32,305 bases of DNA, taken from positions 1 through 32,305 of the forward strand of contig JAODAQ010000015.1 of the NCBI GenBank assembly GCA_025463515.1, in the 5' to 3' direction. Made by a program: the position numbers and the translations under genes. The notes under the pieces are model-generated. The model did not search any database, was not told the origin of the DNA, and saw only the letters and a list, made by a program, of their open reading frames with translations. Origin of the DNA: Rhodoglobus sp. GTDB taxonomy: Bacteria > Actinomycetota > Actinomycetes > Actinomycetales > Microbacteriaceae. Positions 9,949-14,383 of this stretch are shown piece by piece (positions within the stretch are counted from its first letter, which is position 1; every line of letters starts with the position of its first letter).

Positions 9949-10254
9949 ATGTCAGCAACGCTTGAGATGCCCGTCCGGTACGCGGAGATCGGCGAGGAGG
10001 AATTCGATGAGGTGGACGGCGGCGCGGCGATCGGCGCAGTGCTGGCGATCATCAGCGGAGTGATCGGTGCGATCGGCGCCTCGTACGCGACGGGGCAGAT
10101 CGCGGGCGAGCGGGCGTACTACGCGGGGTTGCGCAACCCCGAGTACCAGGCGCAGAAGTGGGGGATCCGCGGCTACATCCTCAACTACGGCGGCCCGGTC
10201 TTCGGCGGCGCATTCGCGCTGGGCTTCGAGAACAAGTTCTACTCGATGATCTGA
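9949..10254 (+). CDS. Double-glycine leader bacteriocin-like precursor peptide
   Basis: Not a known bacteriocin by name, but its form is diagnostic. The 101-aa protein starts with a 25-residue acidic leader ending EIGEEEFDEVDGG. Counting back from the cleavage site, G-1 and G-2, V-4, F-7 and I-12 are exactly the positions that C39 peptidases read in double-glycine leaders. The 76-residue core opens AAIGAVLAIISGVIGAIG, an Ala/Gly-rich amphipathic helix, continues with an aromatic and basic middle (AYYAGLRNPEYQAQKWGIRG) and ends in GGPVFGGAFALGF. GxxxG packing motifs resemble class IIb two-peptide and related pore-forming bacteriocins. It has no cysteine, so no disulfide or lanthionine. AGGAG (9938-9942) lies 6 nt before the ATG. 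The C39 exporter that should mature it is 2 kb downstream. Confidence 0.82.
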   Translation: MSATLEMPVRYAEIGEEEFDEVDGGAAIGAVLAIISGVIGAIGASYATGQIAGERAYYAGLRNPEYQAQKWGIRGYILNYGGPVFGGAFALGFENKFYSMI

Positions 10255-10256
10255 TC

Positions 10257-10466
10257 GTGGCCTCCCTGCACCTGCGCGTCATCGTCGTGATCGACGCGAT
10301 AGTCATTGCGATCTTCACTGCCGGCTCCGTGCTGGGCAACTACCTGCCCCTCGGGTTCGCAGTGCTGATCGTCATCGGGATGGGCTTCCAGATCTGGAGT
10401 GCCGCGAGCCTGCCCCGCTCTGCCTCGCCCGTGCGCGAGGCGCCGCACCCCGAGCAGCAAAGCTAG
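10257..10466 (+). CDS. Small two-helix membrane protein, candidate immunity protein
   Basis: Begins with GTG two bases after the precursor stop and encodes 69 aa. Two hydrophobic segments are obvious: VIVVIDAIVIAIFTAGSVL and LPLGFAVLIVIGMGFQIW, followed by a polar Ser/Pro/Glu-rich tail ending PHPEQQS. I recognise no family. Its size, membrane nature and placement right behind a bacteriocin-like precursor are those expected of a self-immunity protein; a second exported peptide is less likely because it lacks a double-glycine leader. The start is uncertain because the frame is open upstream inside the precursor gene; GTG at 10257 is the first start beyond that gene's stop, and the stop-start coupling could substitute for the absent Shine-Dalgarno. 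Confidence 0.65.
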   Translation: MASLHLRVIVVIDAIVIAIFTAGSVLGNYLPLGFAVLIVIGMGFQIWSAASLPRSASPVREAPHPEQQS

Positions 10467-10480
10467 AGGAAGGACACCCA

Positions 10481-10513
10481 GCGCCGGTCGCGGCCCGCCG
10501 CCGCGACCGGCGC
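10481..10513 (+). terminator. Strong GC hairpin, probable attenuator between precursor and export genes
   Basis: A perfect 13-bp inverted repeat, GCGCCGGTCGCGG (10481-10493) and CCGCGACCGGCGC (10501-10513), extendable to 14 bp with a 5-nt loop. It is followed by CCGGCTTTCGTT, only a weak U-tract. Placed between the peptide and immunity genes and the export genes, it would allow high expression of the first two and partial read-through to the rest, or protect the upstream mRNA. Confidence 0.7.
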
Positions 10514-10526
10514 CCGGCTTTCGTTG

Positions 10527-10997
10527 ATGAACAAGCCCATTGAAATCCAGTACCCCCGGACGCTCCTTCTGGAGAACACGGTCCGAGTTCGAGCAGAGAT
10601 CGACGACCCCGCCCACATCCACGAAGCGGCGACCAGCCTCAATCGGTTCATCCGTGCGCAAGGGGCGGTGCCGCGCGGCCCCCTCGTGCAGGTCCTGCAG
10701 GTCGACCACGAGAACGGGCGGAACCCGCCGAGCACCGAGCTGATGCGGCAGGCAAGCGCGCCCATCGATGGCGACGGAGAGAGGTTCCGCTTCAGCCCGG
10801 CTGTCGAAGTATCGGGATGCGTGCTCGCGACGTTTCGCGGCGATGCAGCCCACATGCAGGTCGCCTACGGCAAGCTCGCCGTGTTCTCCTACGAGAACGG
10901 CGTTCCTCTCGCCGGCACCTACTACATCGTGCTCGTCGAGCAGGAGGGCACGGCCCTCTCTGCCGACATCTTCGCCGTGACCCGGGAGGAGCTCTAG
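10527..10997 (+). CDS. GyrI-like effector-binding-domain protein in the bacteriocin operon
   Basis: The 156-aa protein seems to be a single GyrI-like/AraC effector-binding domain without a DNA-binding part. The family rhythm is visible twice: an early helix with LNRFIRAQGAVPRGPLVQVL, matching the usual 'G..p.GP.i' turn, and later VSGCVLATFRGDAAHM, AYGKLAVFSYENGVPLAG and YYIVLVEQE with a terminal DIFAV strand. Such domains bind small amphipathic ligands or partner proteins and include the gyrase inhibitor SbmC. Its role here is unknown: ligand sensing, toxin neutralisation or chaperoning are all possible. The ATG at 10527 (a TTG lies one codon upstream) has no Shine-Dalgarno and sits 13 nt after the hairpin; its AT-richer start differs from neighbours. 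The next gene follows 1 nt later. Confidence 0.6.
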   Translation: MNKPIEIQYPRTLLLENTVRVRAEIDDPAHIHEAATSLNRFIRAQGAVPRGPLVQVLQVDHENGRNPPSTELMRQASAPIDGDGERFRFSPAVEVSGCVLATFRGDAAHMQVAYGKLAVFSYENGVPLAGTYYIVLVEQEGTALSADIFAVTREEL

Positions 10998-10998
10998 C

Positions 10999-12135
10999 GT
11001 GCGCACGCTGAGGCTCGACGAGCTCACCGACAGCAGGATCCTCTACGAGAAGCGCCCACCGGTGTTCGGGTTCTTCGTCATCTCCCTGGCGCTGGTTGCG
11101 CTGGCGACCGCAGGGGTCTGGGCAGCGGTCACCACCAAGCCGAGCATCGTGCAGGCCGCCGGCGACGTCGAGAGCGAGAACCGCACCTACGTCATGAGCA
11201 CCGTCTCCGGGCGGATCCTCGAGGTGGCTGCGCCCAACGGGTCCACGGTCAAGAAGGACGATCCCATGATCGTCGTCGAGAGCGGCGACCTCGCCATCGA
11301 GAAGAAGGCCGTGGACGACCAGCTTGCCGCGCTCAACAAGCAGCTCGCGCTGCACGCTCGCTACAGCGCCGACCTGGAGAACGACCTCAACGACTTCGAC
11401 CCCGCCAACCCGGAGGAGTCCTACTTCTACTACCAGCTCGAGTCGCTGGCGAACCAGCAGGCGCAACTACGGGTCGACCCACCGAGCCTCGCAGCCCTCG
11501 GCTACACCGCGGTCGAGATCGACAACGCGATAGCCGGAAACCGGGTGAAGGCGGCCGGGGTGCTGAACGCCGCCCAGAGCGCGGCGGCCGAGCAGGCGGC
11601 AACCCTGCGCCGCCAGATCGACGAACTCACGATCCACGGGTCCGCCCTTGAATCGCAAGTGCTCGGCTATACGGTCTCGGCTGCAGCGTCGGGCGAGGTC
11701 TACCTTGACCCGCACCTCAAGCCCGGCACGGTCGTCACCGTCGGCCAGACCCTGGGCACGATCGCGGCTGCCGACGCCGGCCTCGCCGTTCGGGTCTACC
11801 TGGCCGTGCCCGACCGGGAGTTCGTCGGCGTAGGAGACCCGGTTCGGGTCACCGTGTCGGGGCTGCCCGCGGCGGTGTACGACAAGATCGACGGCACCAT
11901 CGCGTCGATCGACAGCGACGTGACGGTGCTCGACTCCGGAGGCTCGACCGGCACCCAATCGGTGTTCGGCATCTCTGTCGATCTCGACAGGTACTACCTC
12001 GTCGACCGGGACGGCAAGCACCACGACCTCGGCAACGGCACCGCCGTGCGAGTCGACCTGGTGTACGACGAGGAGACCTACCTCCAGTACCTCCTCGGCC
12101 TGCTCGGCTTCTCGGCGGGAGGCGCGGATGCGTAG
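10999..12135 (+). CDS. HlyD-family membrane fusion/adaptor protein
   Basis: A periplasmic-adaptor-type protein of 378 aa that works with the downstream C39 ABC exporter to release the processed peptide. After a cytoplasmic N-terminus, one membrane helix occupies about residues 22-45 (FGFFVISLALVALATAG). A lipoyl/biotinyl-like half-motif, STVSGRILEVAAPNGSTVKK, is followed by a helical hairpin rich in Ala, Gln and Leu (about 95-220), then a second lipoyl half at AAASGEVYLDPHLKPGTVVT and a beta-barrel domain. Gram-positive peptide exporters of this kind carry such accessory proteins. GGGAGGAG (10984-10991) is 7 nt before the GTG start, and the 3' end overlaps the exporter gene by 8 nt, so the two are coupled. 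Confidence 0.88.
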   Translation: MRTLRLDELTDSRILYEKRPPVFGFFVISLALVALATAGVWAAVTTKPSIVQAAGDVESENRTYVMSTVSGRILEVAAPNGSTVKKDDPMIVVESGDLAIEKKAVDDQLAALNKQLALHARYSADLENDLNDFDPANPEESYFYYQLESLANQQAQLRVDPPSLAALGYTAVEIDNAIAGNRVKAAGVLNAAQSAAAEQAATLRRQIDELTIHGSALESQVLGYTVSAAASGEVYLDPHLKPGTVVTVGQTLGTIAAADAGLAVRVYLAVPDREFVGVGDPVRVTVSGLPAAVYDKIDGTIASIDSDVTVLDSGGSTGTQSVFGISVDLDRYYLVDRDGKHHDLGNGTAVRVDLVYDEETYLQYLLGLLGFSAGGADA

Positions 12136-14383
12136 GGTCCACGTCCAGCAGCACGACAGCTCCGACTGCGCGGCGGCGTGCCTGGCCATGGTGGCCGGCG
12201 CGCACGGCAGGCAGGTGAGCATCACCGGCCTGCGGGATGCGATGGGCACCGACATCCGGGGCACCAGCCTGAGGGGCCTCCTGCGCGCGGCCGAGGAGCT
12301 CGGCCTCGATGCGAAAGCGGTGCGCGTCGACCGCGACGGCCTCCTCTCCCGGTACGCACTCCCGTGCATCGCGCAGGTGTGGAACGCGGCCGGCGATCCG
12401 CACTTCGTCGTCATCCACCGCGTCGGGCGGCGTTCGCTCGTCATCGGAGATCCCGCCGCGCGCGCGTCGACGACCGTGCGGCTGGAAGTCTTTCTGCAGA
12501 AGTTCACCGGGGTGCTCGTGGTGCTGGGGCCCACCTCGGACTTCGTTCGGCAGCGGGGCCGCACCCGCGCGACGGCGGACAGGTTCATCGGCCTGCTGAC
12601 GCCGCAGAAGGGGCTGTTCGCCTGGGCGGTCGTGAGCTCGGTGATCCTCACCGTGCTCGGCATCGCCTCCTCGCTCGTGACCAAGATCCTGTTCGACGAG
12701 GTCGTGCCGTTCCAGCTCGAGAACCTGCTCGTGCCCGTCTTCGTCCTGTTCCTCGCGGTCGCGGTCGTGCAGCACCTGGTTCAGTTCGTCCGGCAGTGGA
12801 TAGTCCTGCACCTCTCGCAGCGCATCGACATCCCGCTGATCCTCGGCTACTTCCGGCACGTCTACAGCCTGCCCATGTCGTTCTTCGCCTCGCGGTCGGT
12901 CGGCGACGTCCTCACCCGCTTCGGCGACGCCCTCACGATCAAGAACGTGCTCACCGGTGCTGCACTGACCGTGGTCATGGACGTCGTCATGGCCGCCGTG
13001 ACCGGCACTGTCCTCTTCGTGATGAACCGAGGCCTCTTCCTCGTCATCGGGGTGTTCGTGGTGCTCTCCGTGGCCCTCGTGCTCGCGTTCCGGCGGCCGT
13101 ACCGCAGGGTGAACCAGGAGCAGATGGAGCAGGCCTCGATTCTCAACTCCCGCATCATCGAGGGGCTGCGCGGGGTGGAGGGCATCAAGCTCGAGGCGAA
13201 CGAGGAGCGGGAGATGGAGGGCGTCGAGCGCGAGTACGTCCGGAGTCTGCGCATCTCCTTCCACGAGGGGATGCTCGGCAACGTGCAGTCCACTCTGTCG
13301 TCGTTCATCCAGGCGGCGGTCGGGCTCGCACTTCTCGCCCTGGGCGTCTCGCGGATCCTCTCCGGCGAGCTCACCCTCGGCGGGCTCATGGCGTTCGTCG
13401 CGCTGTCTGGGTTCTTCATCGATCCCGTGACGCGCCTGGTGGGGCTGCAGCTCAGCTGGCAGGAGGCGAGCCTCTCGTTGCGGCGGATCGGCGAGATCCT
13501 CGACCACGACAGCGAGGCGGTGCAAGCGCCAGGCGGTGCCGCGCGCCGCGCTGGCGAAGGATCGGTGTCGTTCGACCACGTCTCCTTCCGGTACAACCTC
13601 CGGGAGCTCGCGCTCGACGACGTGTCGTTCACCGTGACGGCCGGCTCGAAGGTCGCGTTCGTCGGGCCGAGCGGCAGCGGCAAGTCGACCGTCGCGAAGC
13701 TGATCCTGAAGGTGTACGCCGCCGAGCGCGGCCGGATCGCCCTGGGCGGCATCGACACCCGCGAGCTCGGCGCGCGAGACATCCGGCGCTCCGTCGCCTA
13801 CGTCCCCCAATCGGTCGAGCTGTTCTCGCGCTCCGTCGTCGACAACGTCCGCCTATCGGCACCGGATGCCACGGACTCCAGTGTGCGCGACGCCCTGCGC
13901 CGGGCGCACGCCGACGACTTCGTCGCGCGGCTCCCGCACCAGATGAACACCGTCCTCGAGGAGGCGGGCAGTGGACTCTCGGGCGGAGAGCGCAGGCGCC
14001 TGGGACTCGCGCGGGCGCTCCTCAAGGAGACCGACCTCTACATCCTCGACGAGGTGACGAGCGACCTCGACGCCCTGACGGAGGCCGCGATCATCGACGA
14101 CGTCTTCGGCCGGCTCGAGTCGTCGACCGTGGTGCTCATCGCGCACCGCCTCGCCACGGTCATCCGGTGCGACAGGATCTTCGTGCTCGACCGGGGCCGC
14201 ATCGTCGAGCACGGGACGCACGAGGAGCTCCTCGCCCTCGACGGGCTGTACGCGTCGATGTGGGCGGCGCAGCAGGTGCGCGGTGCCGGCACCGGCCGCC
14301 GCGCGGCGGTGCAGGCCCAGCTCGAAGCGCCGCCCGACCCTGCGAGAGTCGAGGCCGAGATCGAGGTGCGGTACGCCGACTAG
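12128..14383 (+). CDS. Peptidase-containing ABC exporter (C39 peptidase, membrane domain, ATPase)
   Basis: A 751-aa bifunctional exporter that cuts double-glycine leaders and pumps the core peptide out. The N-terminal C39 peptidase shows the oxyanion glutamine Q8 and catalytic cysteine C14 in QQHDSSDCAAAC, H92 in DPHFVVIH and D108 in GDPA, so the triad is intact. About six membrane helices span 160-450. The nucleotide-binding domain has Walker A GPSGSGKST (about 513), a Q-loop at YVPQSVELFSRS, signature LSGGERRR, Walker B LYILDEVTSDLD (D641, E642) and the H-loop IAHRL. GGGAGG is 5 nt upstream of the ATG. Its stop codon overlaps that of the convergent AraC gene, leaving no space between module and host locus. 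The natural substrate is most likely the precursor at 9949. Confidence 0.95.
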   Translation: MRRVHVQQHDSSDCAAACLAMVAGAHGRQVSITGLRDAMGTDIRGTSLRGLLRAAEELGLDAKAVRVDRDGLLSRYALPCIAQVWNAAGDPHFVVIHRVGRRSLVIGDPAARASTTVRLEVFLQKFTGVLVVLGPTSDFVRQRGRTRATADRFIGLLTPQKGLFAWAVVSSVILTVLGIASSLVTKILFDEVVPFQLENLLVPVFVLFLAVAVVQHLVQFVRQWIVLHLSQRIDIPLILGYFRHVYSLPMSFFASRSVGDVLTRFGDALTIKNVLTGAALTVVMDVVMAAVTGTVLFVMNRGLFLVIGVFVVLSVALVLAFRRPYRRVNQEQMEQASILNSRIIEGLRGVEGIKLEANEEREMEGVEREYVRSLRISFHEGMLGNVQSTLSSFIQAAVGLALLALGVSRILSGELTLGGLMAFVALSGFFIDPVTRLVGLQLSWQEASLSLRRIGEILDHDSEAVQAPGGAARRAGEGSVSFDHVSFRYNLRELALDDVSFTVTAGSKVAFVGPSGSGKSTVAKLILKVYAAERGRIALGGIDTRELGARDIRRSVAYVPQSVELFSRSVVDNVRLSAPDATDSSVRDALRRAHADDFVARLPHQMNTVLEEAGSGLSGGERRRLGLARALLKETDLYILDEVTSDLDALTEAAIIDDVFGRLESSTVVLIAHRLATVIRCDRIFVLDRGRIVEHGTHEELLALDGLYASMWAAQQVRGAGTGRRAAVQAQLEAPPDPARVEAEIEVRYAD

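Follow-up and report, generated by a model that had tools for sequence, protein, structure and literature searches.

A double-glycine peptide export module of Rhodoglobus sp., most likely a bacteriocin system, with a predicted GyrI-fold, DUF5085-like protein

C39 peptidases read hydrophobic leader residues at positions -4, -7, -12 and -15 before a Gly-Gly, and pediocin-like and similar bacteriocin families are known with both double-glycine and Sec leaders. Among type VII systems, the available part of PMC12744356 describes how, in the cytosol of the producer Staphylococcus aureus ST398, the toxin EsxX is neutralised by the DUF5085 pair ExiAB, with the groove of ExiB, which has a GyrI-like fold, gripping the glycine zipper of EsxX, and how the separate membrane proteins ExiCD protect from outside. 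TipE, which is also a DUF5085 protein, antagonises the membrane toxin TelE inside the producer, and the TelE C-terminus is called weakly homologous to bacteriocin IIc in the part of PMC10434224 at hand. Here we describe a five-gene module of Rhodoglobus sp. (Microbacteriaceae; assembly GCA_025463515.1) in which a double-glycine precursor and a C39-peptidase ABC exporter are accompanied by a gene, orf156, for a predicted GyrI-fold, DUF5085-like protein. The module lies on contig JAODAQ010000015.1, one of 78 contigs of a 3.3-Mb draft genome; this complete contig of 32,305 nucleotides is the stretch that we analysed and is called the window below. It is a real and complete-looking double-glycine peptide export module, and its product is most likely a bacteriocin. 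With somewhat better than even confidence we favor a reading in which the module makes and exports an unmodified, membrane-active bacteriocin, orf156 is a cytosolic keeper of the peptide, and a small membrane protein, m69, gives protection outside.

The precursor and its exporter

The five genes occupy positions 9949-14383 of the + strand and are tightly packed, with spacings in module order of 2 nt, 60 nt, which includes a hairpin, and 1 nt, followed by an 8-nt overlap. These coordinates bear out an earlier reading of the DNA (the original prediction), which had proposed a tight module of five genes on one strand. The first gene encodes a precursor of 101 aa (9949-10254), made up of a 25-aa leader, MSATLEMPVRYAEIGEEEFDEVDGG (codons 9949-10023), that ends in Gly-Gly, and a 76-aa core (10024-10251) that starts AAIGAVL. 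V, F, I and Y fill leader positions -4, -7, -12 and -15, in keeping with the canonical double-glycine leader that had been proposed. A six-frame scan of the window found four leader-like small open reading frames (ORFs), and only this one has the exporter beside it.

The exporter (751 aa, 12128-14383) carries the C39 catalytic triad, C14, H92 and D108, and the ATPase motifs Walker A (GPSGSGKS), LSGG and HRL. Its Pfam matches are all over cut-off (Peptidase_C39, 113.2 bits, at 12137-12538; ABC_membrane, 121.7 bits; ABC_tran, 106.2 bits), and it passes NCBIfam TIGR01193 with 532.2 bits against a cut-off of 523.85. The HlyD-type adaptor of 378 aa (10999-12135) matches HlyD_3 at 51.7 bits, also over the Pfam cut-off. 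Exporter, intact triad and adaptor are thus as originally described. The prediction had also placed no modification enzyme nearby, and none was found in a Pfam scan of the five module genes and ten flanking genes, which covered 10 of the 27 other genes called in the window. Together with the exporters of the relatives described below, leader and exporter support a self-sufficient unmodified bacteriocin system as a prediction, in which we infer the activity and the unmodified state.

One core family behind two leader types

The core, one long half of which is hydrophobic and glycine-rich, belongs to a small new family that has no Pfam match. No Pfam family matched the precursor, and so the match to a family of non-secreted membrane proteins that the original prediction had named as its possible refutation did not appear. 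Assignment of the core to a known bacteriocin family was likewise rejected, with nothing over cut-off for the precursor in Pfam or NCBIfam. We searched 299 genomes of Microbacteriaceae with the window precursor (E <= 0.01) and obtained matches in 12. Four of these (G034, G066, G189 and G217; E 0.002-0.005) were set aside as chance matches to long reading frames that are not precursor-like, three of them after examination of the locus and G217 from the search result. The remainder were the window's genome, two genomes with double-glycine precursors, and five with Sec-like precursors at six loci (G050 has two). A scan of a collection of species genomes with four core rows gave nine named loci: in Labedella populi, L. 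phragmitis, two Plantibacter, two Frigoribacterium and Microbacterium sp. SA39 and, outside this phylum, in Bacillus sp. CH30_1T and Rossellomorea sp. SC111. Five of the nine were already in the family search. The distinct loci come to six of the double-glycine type (the window, the two Labedella, Microbacterium SA39, Bacillus CH30_1T and Rossellomorea SC111) and seven of the Sec type, the latter in six genomes. Their cores have in common AGL, a Y..xKW..R stretch and a C-terminal FENxFY, and the end residues are strikingly conserved.

Further searches gave no other relatives. When genome contigs were first scanned with the window precursor, 168 stretches came back and none was confirmed; a core profile run through 396 genomes of the phylum found the window's own genome only; in the family of the Bacillus hit, a precursor profile found two of 36 genomes, both already known; and viral contigs, plasmids and phages held no core relatives. 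Searches by sequence for solved structures related to the precursor or to orf156 gave nothing below E 0.5, and a fold model of the precursor was discarded (pLDDT 45.6).

The profile TIGR03949 (lactobin A/cerein 7B) matched all six double-glycine precursors at E <= 1, and two of them, from Bacillus (21.9 bits) and Rossellomorea (24.9 bits), are over its cut-off of 21.5. These matches would suit a precursor that is one partner of a two-peptide class IIb bacteriocin of the lactobin A/cerein 7B type. The window precursor, however, scores 13.7 bits, under the cut-off, the match lies mainly on the leader and the start of the core, and the six-frame scan of the window gave no second convincing leader-bearing ORF; we regard a class IIb partner as very improbable.

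The two leader types go with different neighbors. The related gene set recurs in synteny with the double-glycine precursors of the two Labedella, Microbacterium SA39, Bacillus CH30_1T and Rossellomorea SC111. Within Microbacteriaceae, where such synteny had been suggested as a check, the two Labedella and Microbacterium SA39 carry the related set, with m69 not at that place. The exporter adjoins the precursor in all five relatives, and the pattern that would have contradicted the prediction, a precursor always found without exporter, was not seen. Because homologous precursors with the same kind of leader adjoin C39 exporters in two phyla, the module is more than a chance arrangement. The same core also stands behind Sec-like leaders at seven Microbacteriaceae loci with no C39 exporter nearby, and there, as judged by eye, the leader gives way to a start that resembles a signal peptide and to a pro-region, which is acidic in several of them. 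C39 was found in all five named double-glycine genomes and in none of the four named Sec-type ones. In the family search, where C39 is rare (a match in 8 of the 299 genomes, with one C39 protein in the genome of the window), none of the five Sec-type genomes was among the eight. Five other Microbacteriaceae genomes have C39 matches; the four that were examined (L083 was left out) carry GG-like peptides of other kinds, and inspection by eye showed no orf156-like gene in them.

Two loci showed further features. The precursor of Frigoribacterium sp. PhB24 (L029:8716-9186) is shortened; the beginning of the core and the greater part of the signal and pro-region are gone, and the core end and an m69-like gene are kept. 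A row of three consecutive small ORFs in Microbacteriaceae genome G181 (L080:1681-2591), near a C39 exporter of another kind, has leader-like acidic starts that end in AAGG, and the tails that follow are short and rich in serine/asparagine.

C39 exporters also export pheromones, as stated in the part of PMC7018657 consulted, and the exported peptide could be a signal or another non-lethal peptide. The striking conservation of the last core residues would agree with this, and killing by the peptide is itself a prediction. Yet at 76 aa and with a long hydrophobic, glycine-rich half the core is unlike the known short pheromones, no sensor gene was recognized beside the module (the AraC-type neighbor belongs to a galactoside locus), and a keeper with a small membrane protein fits a toxin better. 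We think a signal rather improbable; the exported peptide probably acts against bacteria.

A candidate keeper and other candidates for self-protection

By fold model and profile comparison, orf156 (156 aa, 10527-10997) is a GyrI-fold, DUF5085-like protein and a candidate cytosolic keeper of the precursor. Five AlphaFold models had pLDDT values of 85.4, 79.2, 55.6, 43.5 and 39.9. The best AlphaFold2 model (pTM 0.81) has the element order of a duplicated SHS2 fold, the duplicated strand-helix-strand-strand fold of the GyrI-like superfamily. With Foldseek it matched 31 PDB chains at E <= 1e-3, GyrI-like ones at the top, the best being CTR107, BmrR, STM3175, EcmrR, SbmC/GyrI and CtaZ (E 9.5e-8 to 6e-4). 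The label "GyrI-like" given in the original prediction therefore holds for the predicted structure but finds no Pfam match up to E 1.

Likeness to DUF5085 was seen in the relatives. Pfam DUF5085 (PF16895, cut-off 30 bits) is matched by two of the five orf156 relatives (best E 3.3e-5); the Bacillus relative scores 24.8 bits and the L063 protein 24.6, below the cut-off, and the L070 protein 33.8, over it. We made a DUF5085 profile from 10 proteins of five other Bacillota loci chosen as type VII neighborhoods, four of which hold an LXG match over the Pfam cut-off (pieces in L065 and a third copy in L067 were left out). In profile comparison the five orf156 relatives reached 97.4% against it (E 9.6e-12, over 146 columns), and the figure was 95.7% (E 1e-8) when just the three actinobacterial ones were compared. 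A control of 14 ordinary GyrI-like sequences from Microbacteriaceae gave 1.1% with the five relatives, 2.1% with the three actinobacterial ones and 1.5% with the window protein alone, although this control is mixed in kind and the DUF5085 profile itself gets just 1.4% with it. A wider set, which includes the L070 protein that is over the GyrI-like cut-off, reached 98.8% with DUF5085 and 50.1% with the control. Run through whole genomes, the orf156 profile found 6 of 6 double-glycine versus 0 of 6 Sec-type genomes. Among 396 genomes of the order orf156 was found in its own genome only, as was the wider-set profile among 236 genomes of the phylum.

Since orf156 relatives are absent where the same core leaves by the Sec-like way, orf156 would suit the role of keeper of a peptide that stays in the cytosol until its export. 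The precursor would be synthesized in the cytosol, where orf156 would bind its hydrophobic core and leave the producer unharmed before export. The C39 domain would cleave after Gly-Gly, the ABC-HlyD pair would export the core, and m69, a co-produced small membrane protein, would shield the producer outside.

The locus might instead be a plain class II operon, in which orf156, without a pre-export function, is an ordinary immunity protein to the exported peptide or a small-molecule detoxifier. Small molecules are what the GyrI fold mostly binds, the Foldseek matches include resistance proteins (STM3175 and CtaZ), and the gene is placed in the operon as an immunity gene would be. We nevertheless judge this unlikely: DUF5085 is closer to orf156 in sequence than the ordinary GyrI-like proteins tested are, and orf156 is missing from the six Sec-type genomes with the same core, where external immunity would still be needed. 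This absence fits an outside-immunity protein less well than a keeper.

Several observations weigh against orf156 as a keeper and m69 as its outside counterpart. Pfam DUF5085 does not match the window's orf156 up to E 1; the protein reaches only 61% (E 8.1e-5) when compared alone with the DUF5085 profile, and only two of its five models are confident. The count of six versus none includes close pairs (the two Labedella; Bacillus and Rossellomorea), so that the six double-glycine genomes amount to fewer than six independent cases. In Microbacterium SA39 the orf156-like gene is split between frames (L030:9297-9699), with a partial profile match to positions 97-153 of 158 in a frame that differs from that of the first part, either a broken gene or a sequencing error. 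No m69 relative stands at that place in the other five of the six double-glycine loci. The window core has one glycine-zipper match, a number equalled by 58% of 2000 shuffles, and no detectable similarity to LXG C-termini (six proteins).

The last two results define how the module relates to type VII toxins. The zipper count (GxxxGxxxG) is a blunt measure, by which one of six C-termini from DUF5085 loci beat its own shuffles at 5%. Homology of the core to LXG C-termini was rejected, with 0.6% in comparison with the C-termini of six proteins from those loci, and Pfam gave no LXG domain on the 101-aa precursor. Because the core has neither a zipper above chance nor LXG similarity, it is orf156 that carries the tie to type VII toxins.

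We searched for DUF5085-like genes in 249 genomes of the order of the Bacillus hit, with the Bacillus genome as the search center and the Rossellomorea locus known beforehand. Matches (E <= 0.001) occurred in 10 genomes, seven of them over cut-off. The match in L071 was a chance hit, and that in G1328 (E 1e-3), which sits in a flagellar locus, was dropped. A C39 exporter adjoins the DUF5085-like gene in L028, L033, L063 and L070. An LXG protein over the Pfam cut-off is found in L064, L067, L068 and L069; the LXG match in L066 is below cut-off, and Pfam gave none in the L065 protein scanned. The double-glycine precursors of L063 and L070 are of other kinds than the window core. L063 (2559-7740), on the same contig of Rossellomorea sp. 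SC111 as L033, is the second C39 module of that genome and consists of a DUF5085-like gene, an HlyD-like protein, a membrane protein and a 124-aa double-glycine precursor with a glycine-zipper-rich core (six matches, equalled by 2.5% of shuffles). L070 (4570-10489, Bacillota genome G1202) has a C39 exporter, an M48 peptidase of 378 aa and a double-glycine precursor of 83 aa with a core that consists almost entirely of glycine zipper (10 matches, a number that 0 of 2000 shuffles reached) and has a sub-cut-off Bacteriocin_IIc match; its DUF5085/GyrI-like protein is over both Pfam cut-offs.

We tentatively propose, and put its chances slightly below even, that GyrI-fold, DUF5085-like proteins are general cytosolic keepers for exported membrane toxins, type VII LXG proteins and C39 bacteriocins alike, in two phyla. 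A bacteriocin on the C39 route would need its keeper while in the cytosol, and the same core with a Sec signal and pro-region would do without.

The 69-aa membrane protein of the original prediction, m69, was confirmed as an ORF with a GTG start and two hydrophobic stretches (10257-10466). Each of the seven Sec-type precursors is followed directly by a small protein that also has two hydrophobic stretches, and a profile of five of these proteins picked m69 as the best of 224 window ORFs, at 23.3 bits; none of 500 segment-wise shuffles reached this score (best 16.3), and pairwise identities are low (16-33%). On this likeness m69 is a likely external immunity protein. A 77-aa Frigoribacterium protein resembling the m69-like one was dropped, as only its tail is in common. 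Other loci have different neighbors. After the module of Bacillus sp. CH30_1T (L028:10009-12153) come an ABC ATPase, an ABC-2 permease and a 61-aa membrane protein, and in Bacillus and Rossellomorea the ATPase and permease may stand in for m69-like immunity. Beside the Labedella populi precursor (L035:8284-8721) lies a divergent hydrophobic protein of 145 aa with no Pfam match, a possible immunity protein where m69 is missing.

A hairpin of 14 pairs lies between m69 and orf156 (10481-10513, + strand; z -4.41, with 0 of 200 shuffles folding equally well). At the corresponding place, between precursor (or m69) and transport genes, Microbacterium SA39 has one with z -6.2 (L030:9196-9270; window z -4.4); the Labedella hairpin is weak (z -1.7), and Bacillus has none (z 0.6). 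The two loci with strong hairpins are otherwise diverged. The hairpin may set the ratio of precursor to exporter mRNA.

Genomic setting and comparison with known systems

The neighbors of the module are melibiase and aldose epimerase genes at one end and an AraC-type regulator gene at the other (Pfam). Its GC content is 68.3%, versus 71.0% in the rest of the window, and third-position GC is lowest in orf156 (84.7%) of the 13 genes measured, which is compatible with transfer and is not proof of it. A promoter search gave no match.

The core family and the gene combination are new. Within open-licence PubMed Central, no paper was found that joins Microbacteriaceae, bacteriocin and double-glycine, and the accessible text described neither the core family nor a C39 bacteriocin operon with a DUF5085 keeper; the DUF5085 work there concerns type VII secretion or the staphylococcal secretome, with bacteriocin mentioned, in the text available, only in PMC10434224. 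In the parts of two further papers at hand, a GyrI gene appears in a figure legend of work on a Clostridium lanthipeptide synthetase (PMC10301443), and a Listeria protein-prediction paper mentions GyrI-like and bacteriocin (PMC12745843).

The keeper hypothesis is the interesting part of the finding. If true, it would give a role to the GyrI-like genes of peptide-export loci, link class II bacteriocins to type VII toxins through a common self-protection protein, and account for the survival of a producer whose membrane-active peptide has yet to be exported. The natural swap of leaders, with one core on two routes and the keeper on one only, makes the idea directly testable. The module also adds a predicted bacteriocin family for Microbacteriaceae, where C39 exporters are rare.

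Class II double-glycine operons with a TIGR01193 exporter resemble the module in the leader, the peptidase exporter, the HlyD-type accessory protein and a small membrane protein beside the precursor. The module differs in its core family, which is new and without a Pfam match, in the constant presence of a DUF5085-like GyrI-fold gene, and in its occurrence in an actinobacterial family where C39 is rare. The pneumococcal rtg locus, as far as the available text of PMC7018657 goes, likewise has a GyrI-like gene, rtgX, in a C39 exporter locus of double-glycine peptides; rtgX is there called a "GyrI-like hypothetical protein" with no role proposed, and its likeness to orf156 is by description only.

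The type VII systems EsxX/ExiAB and TelE/TipE share with the module a DUF5085-like GyrI-fold gene beside an exported, probably membrane-active toxin, as described in the available parts of PMC12744356 and PMC10434224, and the separate outside protection by the membrane proteins ExiCD (same part of PMC12744356) may have its counterpart in m69. Unlike these systems the module uses a C39-ABC exporter, a short peptide without LXG and one DUF5085-like gene instead of a pair. With the pediocin-like families it shares the use of two leader types by one core family; here the core is a different one, and the accessory genes change with the leader.

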